46,985 nucleotides of DNA from Actinotignum schaalii. Its GTDB lineage: Bacteria; Actinomycetota; Actinomycetes; Actinomycetales; Actinomycetaceae. The stretch lies in the NCBI RefSeq assembly GCF_028864145.1, contig NZ_JARBHJ010000015.1, forward strand, positions 1 to 46,985, in the 5' to 3' direction. Under the pieces are notes generated by a model that had not been told where the DNA came from, did no database searches, and saw nothing but the letters and a program-made list of their open reading frames with translations. A program made the translations under genes and the position numbers. Shown one piece after another: positions 5,796-37,139 of the stretch (position 1 is its first letter; every line of letters starts with the position of its first letter).

Positions 5796-8080
5796 CGCCG
5801 GCCGCGAGCGCGCATAGCCACCGCGGCACCTCCGGCCAGCAGTAGAAGCGTGGCTGCACCAATGGCGCCGCTGGTATCGCTGCCGGTGTCGGGGAGTTTT
5901 TGAGCGGTCGCCGCGCCTTTCGTCACGGGAGCTGCGCTGTTCGCCGCGGGTGTGCCCGTCGCTGTTGCCGCGCCCGTGGCCGCGGGCGGGTTCTTCGCTG
6001 CCGGGTCCTGCTGGCGCGCGGCGGCGAGTTCCTGCTCAGCCGCGTGCGCAGCCACGCGTGCCGCGCCGAGCCTCTGCTCCGCCTGTTCCTGCGCGGCCTG
6101 GGCCTGCCGCAATCCTTCCTGCGCGGCAGTCACCGCGGCGGTAGCTTTCTCCTGCGCGGCCCGCGCTTCTTCGGCTACTTCACCGGCAAGCCGCGCGGCC
6201 TCGGTGGCCTGCTGCAACCGAGCCGAACGCTCATCGTATTTTTGCGCCTCGGAGATCAAGCGTTCCAGCTCAGCCTGCTGGTGCGCGGCCGCTCGCTGCG
6301 CATTTTCCGCAGCTTTCACTTTCTCCGCTTCAGCGGTTCGTGCGGCTTCCAGCTGCGCGTTCGCGGTCTGCACACCCCGTTCGGCCTGAGTCATGGCCTC
6401 CCGAGCCGCCGCCAGCTCCCGCTTCGCCTCCGCGTGCTGGGCCGCCGCCTCCGCGTGGCGCGCCTCCAACCCGGCGGTCTTACCCTTCGCGCCGGCGAGC
6501 TGCGTGGCCGCCTCCGTGTGACGCTCCTGCGCCGCATCCCGCTCCGTCTTGGCGCGCTGGGCCGCTTCCTTCGCACCGGACGTCGCCGCATCAACCTCCG
6601 CCTGCGTGGCCGCGAGCTTTTCCTGCGCTTCTCGCACGGCCTGCTCCGCCTGGCCGGCCTGCGTGGCCGCGTTCCGCGCCGCCTCCTCCTTGCGCTGGAG
6701 CTCCGCCTGCGCGCGGGTCTGAGCCTCGGCACGCTGCGCGGTCACCTCCCGCGCCTCCTGCAGCTGCTGCTCCGCCTTATTCTGTTCGACGACGGCGCCA
6801 TCACGCTCCGCCTTCTTCGCATCACGCAGGTTGATCGCGGCATCGCGCTCCGTAACAGCTACCTCGTGATCCTGTTCGGCCTTGTTGTACTCCTTTTCCT
6901 TGGCGGCAGCCTCGGCCTGGAGTTCCTCAACCTCGTGGCGCTGTTGCTCCAGAGCCTCCTTGAGTGTTGGGTTCTGTTTAGCAGCCCGCTCCAATGACTT
7001 CAACCATAATTCACGGTCTGCGGCTTCGTTCTTCGCCTTTTCCCAGAGCGCTTTTTTGCGATCCTTGGCTTTCGCGAGCCGATTCGCTTCAGCGGCCTTG
7101 GCCGTAACATTCTCCTCCAGCGGGGCAAGCTCAGCATCCAGCTTCTCTACCCGCGCCTGCGCCTGGGCCGCTACCCCCTCAGCTGCAGTTACCACCTGCT
7201 GAGCCTTCTGCACATCCTGGGCGGCATTCACGGCAGCCTCCTGAGCGCGCAGGGCTTCCTGGCGGGTAGTTTCACGCGCGGCAATCTTGCCTTCCGCAGC
7301 CTTGGTGGCGCCTGCCAGCTGGCTAGCGGCGCCGTCGATCTTCCCCTGTTCACCGCGAACGGCAGCATCGCGCGCCGCTTCGGCCTGGTGTAGATTCTCC
7401 TCCGCTTCAGCCAGCTTTGCCTTCGCGGCAGCTTCCGCGGCCCCTAGTTTTTCGACCTCCACAGCCAGGCGAGTCTTATCGGCCTGGGCGCTAGCTTCCG
7501 CCGTCTCCGCGCGCGTGACCGCCTGCGCCGACGCCTCCACCGCGGCGGTTTTCTCCCACAGCGTTTCCTGCTGGGTTTCAAGATTCGCAGCGGCCTGCCG
7601 GGTGTGCTTGGCCGCGGCATCGCGCTCGGTGGCAGCGGCCTCGGCTCGTGCCACGGAATCCTTCGCGTTTTCCTGTGCGGTGGGGAGTTGATTCTTCGCG
7701 GCGGTACCCGCTTCTTTGACCTCGTCGACGGCGCGCTGGGCGGCCAGTTTTTCAGCTTCGGCAGCACCGAGCTTTTCCGCGGCATTCTTCGAGGCCGTGG
7801 CAGCTGCCGCGGCGGCGGTTTCCGCGTCTTTCAAGGCGTGCTGCGCGGTTGCGGATTGCGCAGCGAGGCGATCCACCTCCGCCTGGTGCGCCTGGACCGC
7901 GGCACGGGCAGCCGCGACTTTCTGCTCCGCCTGGGCGATATTGGGTTGTGTTTGCGGCTTCGTGGCCGCGGCACTGGAGCCGGAGAGCGGCTGGGCCTGC
8001 GCGGCACCGGCCGGAACGAGGGCAACGGCCACCCCGGCGGTGAGAGCGGTCGCGAGGGCGCGGTGAGTGTGGGACCTCAT
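5783..8080 (-). CDS. LPXTG-anchored alanine-rich coiled-coil surface protein 2
   Basis: A 765-residue paralogue of the genes on both sides. The signal peptide is MRSHTHRALATALTAG...AQAQP. A continuous Ala/Glu/Lys/Gln/Arg heptad coiled coil runs from about residue 50 to 690, then a short Pro/Ala/Thr-rich linker. The sorting signal is LPDTG at 729-733 with a hydrophobic helix and a basic tail ending RARGRRSDS. GAAAGGAA stands six bases before the ATG. The sequence is closest to its neighbours in the signal peptide and in the last ~50 residues; the coiled coil has diverged more freely, as expected for a structural rod. It should be covalently attached to peptidoglycan by a sortase. The ligand is unknown. 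Confidence 0.88.
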   Translation of the reverse strand: MRSHTHRALATALTAGVAVALVPAGAAQAQPLSGSSAAATKPQTQPNIAQAEQKVAAARAAVQAHQAEVDRLAAQSATAQHALKDAETAAAAAATASKNAAEKLGAAEAEKLAAQRAVDEVKEAGTAAKNQLPTAQENAKDSVARAEAAATERDAAAKHTRQAAANLETQQETLWEKTAAVEASAQAVTRAETAEASAQADKTRLAVEVEKLGAAEAAAKAKLAEAEENLHQAEAARDAAVRGEQGKIDGAASQLAGATKAAEGKIAARETTRQEALRAQEAAVNAAQDVQKAQQVVTAAEGVAAQAQARVEKLDAELAPLEENVTAKAAEANRLAKAKDRKKALWEKAKNEAADRELWLKSLERAAKQNPTLKEALEQQRHEVEELQAEAAAKEKEYNKAEQDHEVAVTERDAAINLRDAKKAERDGAVVEQNKAEQQLQEAREVTAQRAEAQTRAQAELQRKEEAARNAATQAGQAEQAVREAQEKLAATQAEVDAATSGAKEAAQRAKTERDAAQERHTEAATQLAGAKGKTAGLEARHAEAAAQHAEAKRELAAAREAMTQAERGVQTANAQLEAARTAEAEKVKAAENAQRAAAHQQAELERLISEAQKYDERSARLQQATEAARLAGEVAEEARAAQEKATAAVTAAQEGLRQAQAAQEQAEQRLGAARVAAHAAEQELAAARQQDPAAKNPPAATGAATATGTPAANSAAPVTKGAATAQKLPDTGSDTSGAIGAATLLLLAGGAAVAMRARGRRSDS

Positions 8081-18100: not shown

Positions 18101-18290
18101 CTGGACAGGAGGTGATTGGTGCGCGTGGGCGTGCGCTGTTGCGCGGCACCGTGCGCGCGGGCGTGTGGTACGACGGCGCAGCCGCCGGCTAGCGCGGACG
18201 TCGTCACGTTAGCGGGCAGAAGGGAGCGGGCGGAAGGGAGCGAGAATCTCACAAACCTCAGCAGTCACACCAACATCTGGGGATGGAGCA

Positions 18291-18350
18291 TGTGTTGTCC
18301 GGGCTGTACTTCGCGTGTACGACATTTGCAGTACAGCCCGGAAAAACACC
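18291..18350 (+). repeat. Dyad element, copy B
   Basis: TGTGTTGT, then a perfect 12-bp inverted repeat CCGGGCTGTACT (18299-18310) / AGTACAGCCCGG (18330-18341) around a 19-base centre, then AAAAACACC, which mirrors the outer GTGTT. Copies C and D match most of these positions. It sits in a 657-base gap between divergently placed genes. About 50 bases to its right is a 30-bp-periodic array (18394-18482). To its left GTGCGCGTGGGCGTG recurs at a 32-base distance (18119, 18151), possibly another decayed array. Confidence 0.8.
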
Positions 18351-18393
18351 CCGCCCCGCCGGCTAGGGCACCTGGGTACCGAGGGGATGGGCC

Positions 18394-18482
18394 ACAGGAT
18401 GCAAATTGGGGAACATCGGGATCTTGTAGTGCAAGCCCAGAACAGAAAACGGGCCACAATGGTGTGTAGATTTGCATCCTGT
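18394..18482 (+). repeat. 30-bp-periodic motif array with inverted end (array B)
   Basis: GCAAAT at 18401 and GCAAGC at 18431 are exactly 30 bases apart. A final inverted copy, ATTTGCATCCTGT (18470-18482), is the perfect reverse complement of the first copy ACAGGATGCAAAT (18394-18406). From 18427 to 18487 the sequence is strongly similar to 28007-28067. The remainder of the gap (18483-18745) has small inverted repeats (CCTATA...TATAGG at 18507-18536; GATTCT/AGAATC near 18640) but no gene I can support. Confidence 0.8.
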
Positions 18483-18745
18483 TGCGGGCCAGTTGAGGTT
18501 TACAGACCTATAGGGCCCACAACCGGGGCCTATAGGCCAAAAAATGAGGACCGGCCCTGGACTACTCCAAGGAGCAGCGGTACCGGTCTTGGTGAGATAA
18601 CTTTACCGGATCATCAAGAAAACGCGAGCCTGCTTGGATTCTAGTCAGAATCTACTCACGCCAGGGCGGCTTTGAGCAGGTCGCGGGCCGTTGAATGGCT
18701 TTCTTCGCTGCCGGTTTTCCGGCTTCCGAACGGAACTACGCGCGG

Positions 18746-19573
18746 TCAGCCGCGGCGGGAGAATTCACGGGAACGCGCGACGGCGAGGGAATCGACCAGC
18801 TCGTTGGCGGCATCACCAGCGTGGCCTTTGACCCATTCTACTTCGGTGCGGCCGGTGCGAGACTCGTACAGCGTGAGGAGGCGCTCGACGAGATCACGAT
18901 TCTTCACCGGCTTCCCGTCCGCTTTCTTCCAGCCCTTCGCGCGCCAACCGCGCGCCCATTTCGTCATGACATTAATGACGTACTGCGAATCCGCGCGGAT
19001 AAGCAACGGCGCTTGGGTACCGTGCTGAGCCGCCACATATTCCAAACCCTCGATGAGCGCCGTCAGCTCCATAATATTATTCGTGGTGCGGGCCGCTCCT
19101 CCGCTATCCCGCGCCCCGCTGAGCTGCTCAACCCAGGCCCAACCACCCGGTCCCGGATTCCCCGAGCACGCCCCATCGGTGGCAAGCACCGCGGCAAAGC
19201 CCGGGCGCGGGCTGCCGACCGGGCTACCGCTCCCGGGCGCCAAGGCTGGAGCGGGGCTGGCTGCGGCGGCGTCGTACCCCTCATCTTCATCCATGCCCGC
19301 GAGCGGCAGCAGACCCTGCACCTCGTTAGTCACGGCCTCCGCGGTGGCTGTGCCGCCCGCATCAGTATCCACAACCGCGCGCAGCAAGCGCTCGGAATCC
19401 GCGTGCCACAACACCCCGCTTTCGCGTCCCTCATCAGCTAAACCGTGGCGGGAAGCGAGCGGGGACGGCGCGGCGCCGTCGGCCAAACCTAAACGTTCGA
19501 GGGCGGCGAGGGTAGTGAAAGTATCCGTGCCGCAACGTTCAGCCAATTCAGCGGTTGTTAACCAGGTTGTCAT
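18746..19573 (-). CDS. rnhA: Ribonuclease HI with N-terminal extension
   Basis: Cleaves the RNA strand of RNA-DNA hybrids. The C-terminal ~155 of 275 residues form the RNase H domain with all catalytic positions: Asp in ATDGACSGNPGPGG, Glu in NNIMELTAL, Asp in RADSQYV, and the KGHAGDAANELVDSLA segment. The first ~75 residues (MTTWLTTAELAERCGTDTF...) look like a small winged-helix or helix-turn-helix domain. An acidic, Pro/Ser/Gly-rich linker joins the two. This is not the hybrid-binding domain of eukaryotic RNase H1. The ATG at 19573 has no Shine-Dalgarno, but TACCCT lies six bases upstream, again suggesting leaderless transcription. Confidence 0.92.
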   Translation of the reverse strand: MTTWLTTAELAERCGTDTFTTLAALERLGLADGAAPSPLASRHGLADEGRESGVLWHADSERLLRAVVDTDAGGTATAEAVTNEVQGLLPLAGMDEDEGYDAAAASPAPALAPGSGSPVGSPRPGFAAVLATDGACSGNPGPGGWAWVEQLSGARDSGGAARTTNNIMELTALIEGLEYVAAQHGTQAPLLIRADSQYVINVMTKWARGWRAKGWKKADGKPVKNRDLVERLLTLYESRTGRTEVEWVKGHAGDAANELVDSLAVARSREFSRRG

Positions 19574-19629
19574 AGCTTTAGGGTAGCGTGCCGGGCGGTG
19601 CGACCACGCATCCCGGGGATTCCGCGCAG

Positions 19630-19638
19630 TTATCCACA
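19630..19638 (+). promoter_or_regulatory. DnaA-box consensus
   Basis: A perfect TTATCCACA in the gap between RNase HI and the macrodomain gene. A single box cannot define an origin; it could be chance, a titration site or regulatory. Confidence 0.35.
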
Positions 19639-19753
19639 GGGCGTGGCGGCGGGCGCGCAAGGCCACCGGCCCTGTGCATACGCGCACGAAAACCGTTCCT
19701 GCCCGGTACCCTTGTACTAGGGAACCCTGTTCGGACCCAGAATAAGGAGAATA

Positions 19754-27575: not shown

Positions 27576-27690
27576 TTTCGGGGGCCGCGCGCAACTCTGT
27601 TCGGTAGCCACGCGCCCGAAAGCCGAGCGTTCCGTATACCGAGTGCCCGATAAGCCAAAGAACCATAAACCGGGTGCCCTATAACTCCAA
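27576..27690 (-). repeat. 30-bp-periodic motif array with inverted end (array C1, leftward)
   Basis: On the minus strand, TTATAGGGCACCCGG, TTATCGGGCACTCGG and TTTCGGGCGCGTGG recur at 31 and 30 bases (plus-strand anchors at 27674, 27643 and 27613). They end in an inverted CCCCGAAA (27576-27582), 46 bp from the outer edge of the last direct copy. The array runs leftward from dyad element copy C. It lies in a 1069-base gene-free gap; 27304-27575 shows nothing I can assign. Confidence 0.6.
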
Positions 27691-27725
27691 TCTCAGGAGT
27701 CACACCTGTACCTGCGGAGGGACTA

Positions 27726-27784
27726 TGTGTTGTCAGAGCTGTACTTCGTATGTACGACATCCGCAGTACACTCCGGAAAACACA
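27726..27784 (+). repeat. Dyad element, copy C
   Basis: TGTGTTGTCAGAGCTGTACT, TCGTATGTACGACATCCGC, AGTACACTCCGGAAAACACA. It is nearly identical to copy D over ~58 bases and close to copy B. The inner arms are GAG(C)TGTACT / AGTACACTC; the outer arms are TGTGTT / AACACA. Arrays extend from both sides: C1 to the left, C2 and C3 to the right. Confidence 0.8.
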
Positions 27785-27846
27785 TACCGGGTTCGGCGGC
27801 CTACGCGCTCGCGATATTGCCCGCGCGCGTGCCAAAATCCAGCAGG

Positions 27847-27937
27847 CCCCGCAAAGTGTGCGTCACGAACCTCGCAGCCCGCAAAGTGTGCGTGAGGAAC
27901 ATGGAATCAGGTGAAAACGGTACTCACACGCACACTT
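27847..27937 (+). repeat. 30-bp-periodic motif array with inverted end (array C2)
   Basis: CCCGCAAAGTGTGCGT occurs at 27848 and 27878, exactly 30 bases apart. The inverted copy ACGCACACTT is at 27928-27937, 54 bp (outer edge) from the second direct motif at 27884. The segment between them contains AATCAGGTGAAAACGGT, which resembles AATCAGGCCAAAATGGT at the same place in array C3. Confidence 0.75.
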
Positions 27938-27976
27938 GTTCGCGATGAAGGCTCGTCACCGAGTCCGGGGTAAACA

Positions 27977-28067
27977 TAGTGCAAATTCCGGACGGTCAGG
28001 GTCGCGTAGTGCAAACTCAGAGCAGAAATCAGGCCAAAATGGTGCGTAGATTTGCACCCTGTTGTGG
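27977..28067 (+). repeat. 30-bp-periodic motif array with inverted end (array C3)
   Basis: TAGTGCAAA at 27977 and 28007 (30 bases apart), inverted ATTTGCACC at 28050-28058. The spacing (30, then 40 between GCAAA and TTTGC) is identical to array B, and 28007-28067 is strongly similar to 18427-18487. The first inter-motif segment differs between the two loci. Confidence 0.8.
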
Positions 28068-28372: not shown

Positions 28373-28459
28373 TGGTGCTCAAGGGGGGAGTTGAACCCCC
28401 ACGCCCTCACGGGCACACGGACCTGAACCGTGCGCGTCTGCCTATTCCGCCACTTGAGC
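28373..28459 (-). tRNA. tRNA-Leu (anticodon CAG)
   Basis: An 87-nt class II tRNA. The acceptor arms GCTCAAG / CTTGAGC are followed by discriminator A and an encoded CCA. The D-arm has GGCGGAAT-AGGCAGACGC. The anticodon stem CACGG/CCGTG encloses the seven-base loop TTCAGGT, giving anticodon CAG for CUG codons. The variable arm is GCCCGTGAGGGC, and the T-arm is GGGGG-TTCAACT-CCCCC. All stems pair. Confidence 0.97.
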
Positions 28460-34553: not shown

Positions 34554-36707
34554 GTGAATGATATCCCCCGCGTACTCGGCAACCGCTACCAGGTGGGCGA
34601 GATCATCGGTCGAGGCGGTATGGCCGAAGTACATCTCGGCTACGACACCCGGCTCTCACGCACGGTAGCGATTAAAATCCTGCGCACCGACCTGGCGCAG
34701 GATGCCACCTTCCTGGCCCGTTTCCGGCGTGAGGCGCAATCGGCGGCCGCGCTCAACCACCCCTCCATTGTGTCCGTGTATGACACCGGGGAAGAAACCG
34801 TGACTTCCGCGAGCGGCACCGAGCTGGCGCTGCCCTATATCGTCATGGAATACGTCAAGGGCCGCACCGTGGCCTCCCTGCTGCACGGCGGGGACCCGGT
34901 ACCCATCGGGGAGGCCGTGCAGATCGTGGTGGGGGTGCTTTCCGCGCTGGAATACTCCCATCACGAAGGCATCATTCACCGCGATATCAAGCCGGGCAAT
35001 ATTATGCTCACCACCGGCGGCAAGGTGAAGGTCATGGACTTCGGGATCGCCCGCGCGATTGCCGATTCCGCTGCCACGATGACGCAAACGAACTCCGTGG
35101 TGGGCACCGCCCAGTACCTCTCCCCCGAGCAGGCGCGCGGGGAAGTGGTGGATGCGCGCTCCGACCTGTATTCCACCGGCTGCGTGCTGTATGAGCTGCT
35201 CACCGGGCGCCCGCCCTTCGTGGGTGATAGCGCGGTGGCGGTGGCCTACCAGCATGTTTCTGAAACTCCCAAGCCGGCTTCCCAGATCGCTTCCGATATC
35301 CCGGACGCCATTGACCGCGTGGTCATGAAATCCCTGGCGAAGAGCCGCGAGGACCGCTACCAGGACGCCGCCGAATTCCGCGCGGACCTGTTGGCTGCGG
35401 CGCGTGGGGAAGGCGTGGACGCCCCGGCGGTTTCCTCCTGGAATGCTTACGGGGCGGGGGCGATTGGCGCGGCTGGTGTTGGCGCGGCTGGTGTTGCCGG
35501 TGCCGGTATTGGCGCGGCCGGGGCGAATGCCGCGACGGCCGCTACGCAAGCCTATTCGGCCACTAACGCCCGCCCCGCCTCCACCACCGCTTATCCCACC
35601 GCGACCGCTGGGGGCGCCGGCGGTGCCGGTGCAGGTGCCGCGGGCGGTGCCGGTGCGGGCGGTGCCGGTGCAGGTGCGATTTCTAGTACGACGGCGCAGC
35701 CGGGCGGCGCGCCCACCTACCCGGGTGGGTACCCGACGGGCGCCTACCCCGGGGCCTACCCCACGGGCAGCTACCCCACCGGGAGCTATCCCGGTTATGA
35801 CCCCACGGCAACCGGAGCGCAACCGCCGGTAAAGAAGAAGTCCAGTGCGCCCTTCATTTGGGGCGGGGTGGCTCTGCTTGTTATTGCCCTGGGGATCCTG
35901 GGCTGGTTCTTCCTGTCCGGGCGGGGCGACTCCGCCGAACCGCAACCCACCGAAACCGCGGTGGCGCAGGTGGCGATCCCCGATATGGTGGGGTGGACCG
36001 AGGTGCAGGCCAGCCAACAGCTCACCAGCTTGGGCCTGGAATTCGTGCGCGGCACGGATGTGTCCAGCGATACCGTGGACAAGGGGCTGGTTGTGTCCTC
36101 CAATCCGGCGATGCGGAGCACCGTGGATGTGGGCAGTCGCGTGACCTTGCATTTCTCCTCCGGTCCGTCCGCCGTGCAGGTTCCCGATGTGGTGGGGATG
36201 AGCACGGATCAGGCCTCCCAGGCGCTACGCGCGGCGGGGCTGACCGTGGGCGGTATGGAGCAGGTTAATGACCCGAGCGAGGACCGCGACCGGGTGGTGT
36301 CTACCAGCCCGAATGTGGGCGAAAGCGTGAAGCCGGGCAGTACCGTGAAGCTGCAGGTAGCCAGCGGCAATGTGGCAGTTCCGGATGTACGCGGAATGAG
36401 CGTAGATGAAGCGCGGGCGGCGCTGCGCGATGCTCGCCTCACGGTCGTGGGCCAAAGCGAGCAGGAGGTCACCGACCCGGCGAAGGTCGGCAAAGTCGTG
36501 GATGCGAGCATTGCTCCGGGCACCGTGGTTCAGCGCGATACCGAGATGCGTATTACCGTGGGCATCGCCCCGGCACCCACTCCCACCCCGAGCACTCCGC
36601 CCGCCGGCTCCGGTTCTGGTGGTTCCGGCTCTGGCGGATCGGGAGGTAACGGTGGCGCGGGCGGCGCGCACCCCAACCCCGCACCTACCGGGCAGGGGAA
36701 CGGGTAA
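34554..36707 (+). CDS. pknB: Transmembrane Ser/Thr protein kinase PknB with three PASTA domains
   Basis: A 717-residue kinase. Residues 8-270 are the kinase domain (glycine loop GRGGMAEVHLG, Lys41 in AIKILR, HRDIKPGN with Asp144, DFG at 162, VGTAQYLSPEQARG). A juxtamembrane linker has an Ala/Gly-rich stretch and a Tyr-Pro-Gly-Gly/Thr-Gly repeat (about 385-425). One transmembrane helix follows (about 432-455), then three extracytoplasmic PASTA domains (about 471-690) that bind peptidoglycan fragments, and a Gly/Ser/Pro tail. The mycobacterial orthologue has four PASTA domains. No separate pknA is present in the operon. GTG start with AAAGGTG upstream. Confidence 0.95.
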   Translation: MNDIPRVLGNRYQVGEIIGRGGMAEVHLGYDTRLSRTVAIKILRTDLAQDATFLARFRREAQSAAALNHPSIVSVYDTGEETVTSASGTELALPYIVMEYVKGRTVASLLHGGDPVPIGEAVQIVVGVLSALEYSHHEGIIHRDIKPGNIMLTTGGKVKVMDFGIARAIADSAATMTQTNSVVGTAQYLSPEQARGEVVDARSDLYSTGCVLYELLTGRPPFVGDSAVAVAYQHVSETPKPASQIASDIPDAIDRVVMKSLAKSREDRYQDAAEFRADLLAAARGEGVDAPAVSSWNAYGAGAIGAAGVGAAGVAGAGIGAAGANAATAATQAYSATNARPASTTAYPTATAGGAGGAGAGAAGGAGAGGAGAGAISSTTAQPGGAPTYPGGYPTGAYPGAYPTGSYPTGSYPGYDPTATGAQPPVKKKSSAPFIWGGVALLVIALGILGWFFLSGRGDSAEPQPTETAVAQVAIPDMVGWTEVQASQQLTSLGLEFVRGTDVSSDTVDKGLVVSSNPAMRSTVDVGSRVTLHFSSGPSAVQVPDVVGMSTDQASQALRAAGLTVGGMEQVNDPSEDRDRVVSTSPNVGESVKPGSTVKLQVASGNVAVPDVRGMSVDEARAALRDARLTVVGQSEQEVTDPAKVGKVVDASIAPGTVVQRDTEMRITVGIAPAPTPTPSTPPAGSGSGGSGSGGSGGNGGAGGAHPNPAPTGQGNG

Positions 36708-36747
36708 GTAGCTACCGGGAACCGGGTCGCTCGCGGATCGGTCCGCA

Positions 36748-36960
36748 AAATGCAACCACAACTACATTAACTTTTCCAAATCGTGCGCTGGCGTTGCTTT
36801 TTGTGAGCTCCTAGCCCAGAGTGTTGCTTTCTGCAGCGCCTGTGTGCTGAGGCGTTGCTTTCTGAGACCTTCCGCGTCGAGAAGTTGCATTTTACAAGCT
36901 ATCGCGTTGTGGTGTTGCTATTTGCCGGCGCTCATGCCGAGAGGTTGCATTATCCGAGCA
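36748..36960 (-). repeat. Six-unit 30-bp-periodic GTTGC array with inverted end (array D)
   Basis: On the plus strand GTTGC starts at 36793, 36823, 36854, 36884, 36914 and 36944: spacings of 30, 31, 30, 30 and 30. The shared core is GTTGC-W-T-T; the rest of each ~30-base unit is variable but often ends CGAGA. One opposite-orientation copy, AAATGCAACC, is at 36748-36757. Read on the minus strand, it follows dyad element D: six direct motifs, then one inverted motif 54 bp (outer edges) from the last. It fills most of the 432-base gap after pknB; no gene is visible here. Confidence 0.85.
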
Positions 36961-36964
36961 CCCC

Positions 36965-37005
36965 GCCCGCCGGCTTTCCGCTTTCCTATTTTCTAGCCGG
37001 CGGGC
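36965..37005. repeat. GC-rich hairpin beside dyad element D
   Basis: GCCCGCCGGCT pairs with AGCCGGCGGGC (11 bp); the pairing continues outward as CACCCC/GGGGTG with one extra base. The T-rich loop is 19 bases. The left arm sequence (CACCCC.GCCC.GCCGGCTAG) is also present beside copy B. It could double as a terminator for pknB or for the small gene at 37140. Confidence 0.65.
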
Positions 37006-37008
37006 AGG

Positions 37009-37070
37009 GGTGTCTTTTCCGGAGTGTACTGCACGTGTCTTACATACTAAGTACAGCTCTGACAACACGT
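37009..37070 (-). repeat. Dyad element, copy D
   Basis: On the minus strand: ACGTGTTGTCAGAGCTGTAC, TTAGTATGTAAGACACGTGC, AGTACACTCCGGAAAAGACA. Nearly identical to copy C although on the opposite strand and 9 kb away. Confidence 0.8.
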
Positions 37071-37139
37071 ACCGCCCCCGCAGGGGCTGGTACCGTGCTA
37101 CCGTGTGCTAGCTGTGGTCCGGCTAACCCCGTGGCCCAG

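Follow-up and report, generated by a model that had tools for sequence, protein, structure and literature searches.

What are the short motif arrays that lie between genes of Actinotignum schaalii, and what might act on them? In the window, by which we mean the whole analysed stretch of 46,985 nucleotides, the original prediction had placed five intergenic arrays of one architecture, each a series of direct motif copies at 30 or 31 bp with a single inverted copy at its end. Read on the strand that places the inverted copy first, the layout is an inverted motif M, a half-conserved core of ∼30 bp, the reverse complement rc(M), and then rc(M) again every 30 bp, and the flank of M is mostly constant, usually CAAAGTG. 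The first rc(M) follows the start of M by 46 or 47 bp in 67 of 75 distinct arrays, and a 30-bp period is seen in 45 out of the 48 whose second direct copy is clear (the other 27 of the 75, which have no clear second copy by the rule used, stand outside this count), so that the predicted inverted copy and spacing hold in a sharper form. M belongs to one of several sequence classes and the copies within one array mostly agree; the fixed geometry with a motif that changes between arrays, first noted in this window, extends across the family. The arrays and one former candidate are listed below, with E-values from a search of the whole window by the family profile R1 without filters.

27845 to 27944, minus strand: array A2, class GTGYGCG, E 2e-17; M at 27927-27937, direct copies at 27881-27893 and 27851-27863
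27968 to 28067, minus strand: array A3, class GTGCAAA, E 6.2e-17; M at about 28051-28058, direct copies at 28008-28015 and 27978-27985
18388 to 18487, minus strand: array A4, class GTGCAAA as in A3, E 2.7e-12; M at about 18471-18480, direct copies at 18428-18435 and 18399-18406, the last of which is complementary to M over 13 bp
36740 to 36960, plus strand: array A5, class ATGCAAC, first 101 bp matched with E 3.5e-8; direct copies at 36793, 36823, 36854, 36884, 36914 and 36944, each of them GTTGCTTT or a variant of it
27576 to 27690, no strand assigned: not a member, without R1 match; two GTGCCC-type copies 31 bp apart

Four of the five predicted arrays (27847-27937, 27977-28067, 18394-18482 and 36748-36960) are thus matched by R1, and the fifth, at 27576-27690, has been dropped, since it has no match and its copy spacing of 31 bp becomes 48 bp at the orthologous place in another species. 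The longest of them, A5, carries its six direct copies (36793-36951) at spacings of 30, 31, 30, 30 and 30 bp. The three further R1 matches listed for the window have E-values of 2.6 to 5.2. Among the 50 arrays used to build R1 are the window arrays 18387-18487 and 36740-36840 and the sister-species counterparts of A2 and A3, and because this training set holds A4, A5 and those counterparts, the E-values in the window are not independent. A rule that asks for nothing more than a repeat with an inverted copy found 21 clusters compared with 12, 13 and 10 in three shuffles; this bare rule detects poorly, and the profile alone separates signal from chance.

A start profile made from nine arrays found more arrays in stretches of the same genome, and the iterated profile gave 80 matches over 633 kb from six genomes. 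Filtering for completeness and redundancy reduced the 80 matches to 50 arrays, and a covariance model of these was then run under stricter filters on 151 genomes of the bacterial family, evenly drawn from a larger group. Arrays are present in five of six Actinotignum genomes, with at least 24–26 matches each, since no more than 26 candidates were scored per genome; the sixth (G002) gave no array match by the covariance model, and neither did any of the 145 sampled genomes of other genera. The array family is hence restricted to one genus within the sampled bacterial family, and it is on these 145 genomes and the one genome of the same genus, under the stricter filters, that the specificity of R1 rests. 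A degenerate pattern run on public genomes returned 26 stretches, 21 of them from Actinotignum schaalii, A. sanguinis and A. timonense; the other five are single matches in unrelated bacteria, compared with about four estimated by chance.

In nearly all cases the arrays run in the direction of the gene that precedes them. Genes were called by a codon-usage script and tRNAs by ARAGORN in the window and 80 further stretches (976 kb, 141 arrays), and among the 135 arrays having an upstream gene 129 lie on its strand. In the window, A3 sits 3′ of tRNA-Leu (28373-28459, minus strand), A4 sits 3′ of an RNase H gene (18746-19687, minus strand; Pfam RNase_H), and A5 lies 39 bp past the stop codon of a PknB-like kinase gene (34554-36707, plus strand; Pfam Pkinase/PASTA). 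The upstream gene is a tRNA gene for 25 arrays. Gene-to-array distances run from 12 to 2763 bp with a median of 339, and because they are so wide, genes may have been missed at some sites. The six strand exceptions come from three loci, in each of which the orthologue in another species agrees with the rule. When arrays are grouped by flanking sequence into 38 loci, 33 agree, 3 are mixed and 2 have no upstream gene; in tandem gaps 20 loci are co-directional with transcription and 1 is against it, and 2 loci were scored as divergent, though 75 of the 329 gaps of at least 150 bp are divergent.

Moreover, the 3′ side of an array is often occupied by a palindrome of ∼62 bp, with the following instances in the window.

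27719 to 27792, minus strand: palindrome 3′ of A3 and A2, found by the family profile; the DNA fold at 27712-27790 has z −4.4
18254 to 18345, minus strand: palindrome 3′ of A4, found by blast; the DNA fold at 18258-18345 has z −3.7
37011 to 37084, plus strand: palindrome 3′ of A5, found by blast; in front of it stand a GC-rich hairpin (about 36953-37012) and a short T-run

Over the 976 kb of stretches the palindrome profile matched 75 copies, and a blast search of the window's own genome with a palindrome-holding query gave 39 matches, most of them to the palindrome part. A palindrome lies within 1.2 kb of 101 arrays, on the 3′ side of 88 and on the 5′ side of 13, an association that is partly one of choice because the first 20 stretches were picked around palindromes; 40 arrays have no palindrome within 1.2 kb, and 19 of the 75 palindromes have no array near. 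The 67 palindromes that could be placed fall into tandem gaps (36) and convergent gaps (31) and never into divergent ones. Beside A5 the fold of 36945-37080 (z −5.3) comes from the GC-rich hairpin, and the palindrome alone (37011-37080) folds unremarkably (z 0.46). The hairpin with its T-run is clear at A5, which does not hold for every array. Polarity, position 3′ of genes on the gene's strand and the long palindrome that often follows had all been overlooked by the original prediction.

We read the arrays as a lineage-specific, polar composite repeat associated with gene 3′ ends, with a putative protein-site function at the end of transcription, and judging from sequence we give this reading a probability of about 0.45. 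The composite consists of one or more arrays, each of the form inverted M, core, rc(M) and then n further units of about 20 bp and rc(M). It lies at the 3′ end of a transcription unit and runs the same way as the gene; at some sites the GC-rich hairpin and T-run come next, and often then the ∼62-bp palindrome. Each array would line up putative binding sites along a single face of the DNA, 30 bp being near three helical turns, and the rigid period would suit a protein bound every three turns. The reader would be a protein that recognises its sequence, probably from a set of paralogues that differ in the motif they prefer. Its action would be polar, on the transcription complex or on the transcript as either arrives from the upstream gene, in 3′-end formation, insulation or read-through control. 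The tie to the strand of the upstream gene speaks for an agent that encounters the transcription complex or its transcript, and several motif classes within one genome would need either several paralogous readers or pairing within each array.

Pairing is the basis of the main rival, in which the array is a 3′-UTR RNA element: M in the transcript would pair with alternative downstream copies, forming mutually exclusive hairpins that tune termination or mRNA stability. We regard this as possible, if somewhat unlikely. The near-strict agreement with the direction of transcription is easier to explain for RNA than for a DNA site, hairpins do lie downstream of arrays, and M agrees with both copies inside arrays, an agreement that counts for the protein-site reading as well: across classes, 92.2% of the cells between M and the first copy pair, with a covariation of 0.644 compared with 0.225 when shuffled and at most 0.233 when the columns are slid by one, two or three. 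Of the column pairs in the alignment, the strongest five (14-57, 15-56, 14-87, 15-86 and 16-55) join M to the first and second copies; the weaker ones we take mainly to mirror the class structure, though one of these, the inner pair 21-50, lies in register with the M stem and is also in favour of RNA (86% paired, covariation 0.34).

The kinds of departure from complementarity divide the evidence. Between M and the second copy they comprise 37 G-T and 13 A-C cells, an excess as RNA pairing would give, 17 of the 37 G-T cells coming from one column, whereas between M and the first copy they are nearly equal (16 G-T, 14 A-C), a symmetry expected of double-stranded sites. Moreover, RNAalifold finds only the five M pairs, consensus folding gives nothing beyond M with its first copy, and folding z-scores of six arrays run from −2.3 to +1.0. 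One stem position has an A-G mismatch in 5 of 50 aligned arrays, and the distances are rigid where a loop should tolerate insertions and deletions. The rigid pitch near three turns, together with the equal treatment of both strands in the departures between M and the first copy, favours protein sites on double-stranded DNA. Some motif changes between orthologues have no match in the other copies (for example L059:17718), a point against this reading. When the motif columns are removed, a tree of the 50 arrays, which has few columns and many unresolved forks, gives classes that are mostly clades with a few switches (13 changes, minimum 8), and it does not tell a separate reader for each class from pairing within each array.

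In sequence comparisons the arrays look preserved by selection. Loss of the spacing in related strains, which the original prediction had named as evidence against itself, was looked for, and among related species the spacing was found to be kept. In orthologous arrays divergence is three times lower in the motif columns (22 of 557 sites differ) than in the spacers (71 of 573 sites; p 2e-7, from 14 comparisons chosen by hand in 10 groups, with motif columns defined by their conservation across arrays). Insertions and deletions occur at 7 of 2079 sites inside arrays compared with 88 of 8484 in the flanks (p 0.0017) in 24 position-matched pairs, selected by hand from 76. Set against substitutions, the deficit lacks significance (p 0.10), and unfiltered automatic pairing of all 76, which mixed in non-matching arrays, gave no difference (15.1 compared with 16.7 gaps per kb). 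Because pairs and comparisons were picked by hand, the p values for indels and for motif divergence both carry the choice of the author.

Arrays nevertheless turn over against their surroundings. At orthologous places the array class can change while the adjoining palindrome stays (A5 and G003 compared with G001 and G005; L019 compared with L067), the palindrome can be present without an array in one species (L011 compared with L069), and in the gap that holds A2 and A3 sister species gain, lose or swap arrays. Such modular turnover, with different array classes beside the same palindrome, would suit the relic of a non-autonomous mobile element that was targeted to gene 3′ ends in one orientation and whose arrays were transposase-binding sites, as would dispersed copies confined to one genus among the sampled genomes. 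We think this explanation distinctly unlikely. Motif columns that diverge less at fixed sites speak against it, as does the Y1/RAYT transposase (Y1_Tnp, PF01797), found in none of the six genomes of the genus and in 5 of 14 control genomes. Transposase genes do occur beside arrays in one genome (IS3-type in L066, IS110 in L064 and L065), yet no element ending in arrays was seen, and inspection by eye of three orthologous sites for terminal inverted repeats or target duplication of the whole element gave no clean boundaries. The original prediction had also allowed that the array was copied by a mobile or RNA-guided process. This is not supported. The spacers of units 1 and 2 agree at about 40% of positions (18–64% by column), one spacer position being identical in 46 of 50 arrays, and for the most part each positional orthologue has retained its own spacers; this argues that units are generally not fresh copies, the array at L027 being an exception.

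A further proposal combines agreement within arrays with change between them, namely that gene 3′ ends of the genus bear an 'address' system. The short word of an array would appear once in inverted form and several times in direct form at the fixed 30-bp pitch, would be kept consistent within the array and possibly rewritten in every copy at once, and would be read with polarity by a family of factors when transcription leaves the gene. We hold it as speculative and improbable. At one site M is GTGTGCG (L020:1045) and, in another species, GTGGGCG (L068:12605), each with matching copies. A concerted change in place is here no better than array exchange, which is equally likely and makes the 'address' system less probable: outside the motif the two arrays have 48 of 58 positions in common, the L068 array shares 49 of 58 with the array of each of two other loci, and the array tree joins L068 to one of these two.

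Several single sites give glimpses of how arrays may be altered. A GTTGC-class array at L027:9557-9800 has six or seven direct copies with several identical 30-bp units, which suggests recent duplication of whole units. When L076:2297-2397 is compared with L025:9744-9914, two adjacent arrays of one species seem fused to a hybrid in a close relative, as if by deletion between the array cores. In one genome an element with an IS110-family transposase has inserted at L064:2362-3953 and at L065:5144-6600, in both loci at an identical position of the first direct copy, and L064 has its array pair twice, 1529 bp apart. An IS3-type transposase gene stands between two arrays at L066:6788-8212, where the orthologous stretch elsewhere has a different gene. 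In a sister species a frame with an antitoxin-like start lies between the palindrome and A2 (L059, about 6880-7130) and is truncated by the array, and the window retains only its tail at about 27800-27850, both by eye. Long C/G homopolymer runs at contig ends or internally (L019:1-80, L009 near 11510 and the end of L021) are probably assembly artefacts.

Several known repeat families resemble the arrays in part. REP/BIME elements are palindromes in many copies near gene ends, and the trait of a short palindrome in many copies holds here for the 75 palindromes in 976 kb, many of these stretches having been chosen for their palindromes; REPs are not known to carry 30-bp arrays. The MIRU of mycobacteria are actinobacterial intergenic repeats that, like the arrays, are oriented with flanking genes, and they have longer near-identical tandem units containing small reading frames, whereas in the arrays only a motif of 7–11 bp repeats inside diverged 30-bp units. 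Arrays are also dispersed, modular, lineage-restricted and present in many copies, as MITE- or BOX-like elements are. According to the accessible text on streptococci (PMC3049150), BOX is a composite of modules, intergenic, dispersed and confined to a lineage, with a middle module variable in number and over-represented between convergent genes. The same text has the strand of BOX mirror only the coding bias (60.8%), unlike the 129 of 135 arrays on the strand of the upstream gene, and describes no element-specific key motif that agrees inside each element. SPRITE, as described there, lies like the arrays at gene 3′ ends between convergent genes and is terminator-like, and differs in being one hairpin with a U-rich tract that has no array or motif classes (PMC3049150). 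None of BOX, SPRITE and MIRU is known to combine an inverted word, a 30-bp pitch and a class-specific motif. The TAACTGA repeats of Beggiatoaceae share with the arrays a short motif in few repeats over many intergenic regions and, in the text available, a reader that is unreported, but they are one fixed heptamer located mostly just upstream of start codons (PMC4679880).

Short repeats with segments of about 20 bp between them, and an inverted copy that recalls an anti-repeat, could also bring a CRISPR-like or guide array to mind, which we consider very improbable. The CRISPR definition asks for near-identical repeats with unrelated spacers, whereas here only the motif repeats, and the spacers still agree partly between units and are mostly kept in orthologues. 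The arrays are also short, dispersed and located behind ordinary genes, and CRISPR loci of A. schaalii as published carry a different 29-bp repeat, the accessible text of that genome paper describing no arrays of 30-bp pitch (PMC5720513). No cas family was found among 23 scanned proteins from the window, the DUF4143 set and a minority of the array neighbours. By the definitions tested the arrays are neither CRISPR nor RAYT-driven REP, and the view that they are neither a plain tandem repeat nor a CRISPR stands. In Rfam searches the window gave tRNA-Leu alone, and four further loci had no match. In the literature on Actinotignum genomes, interspersed repeats, BOX, MIRU and DUF4143, as far as its open text extends and with subscription papers mostly outside it, the array family is undescribed, and we read it as a new lineage-specific composite repeat. 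Bacterial interspersed repeats are often viewed as inert or parasitic; array geometry, agreement of copies, lower divergence and direction suggest otherwise here, and point to an unrecognised polar device at transcript ends.

A paralogue search limited to the sampled stretches found no reader gene, and blastp of 230 neighbouring frames for a gene family beside the arrays gave mainly orthologues and spurious frames inside repeats. Among the seven paralogue families listed, the largest is the ABC transporter of the window with its orthologues, and the others are two of BPD_transp_1, one with an alpha-amylase domain, one PFK, one without a match and one IclR-type regulator with six members, three of them in G000.

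A separate kind of array came to light at genes of DUF4143/AAA_14 ATPases, which have motif arrays with a 23-bp period directly before the start codon and a motif specific to the paralogue. In the 150 bp upstream of 17 such genes from five Actinotignum genomes, many of them mutual orthologues (L044, L045, L078, L080, L081, L083-L088 and L090-L095; an 18th locus was unreadable), self-matching is best at a lag of 23 bp in 16 and of 22 bp in 1, the measure being weak for the L045 promoter, where 7 of 200 shuffles reach it. By comparison, 48 of 455 other genes of the sampled stretches reach four matching windows, with scattered lags. The 17 genes fall by eye into six paralogue groups, each with a different promoter motif. 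Among 25 DUF4143 genes of other genera (L186-L205 and L209-L213), some with crudely chosen starts, the best lag is 23 bp in 12 (three of them weak), 8 have no self-match and 5 have other lags.

DUF4143 proteins, considered as readers of the 30-bp arrays on account of their 23-bp promoter arrays, were rejected: by eye none of the six paralogue motifs clearly equals an array class, although TTTTGCAACGTA is similar to the GCAAC class, and whereas the arrays are confined to one of the genera sampled, DUF4143 is present in 22 of 36. A search for an AAARTG half shared by both systems matched only a coding repeat in G002. The 23-bp arrays hint that periodic, paralogue-specific site arrays may be in wider use, and they may perhaps be the more general finding. 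In G002, the coding sequence of a probable ABC transporter protein includes a 21-bp repeat (C12:10107-10217, L142), from which a repetitive tail results.
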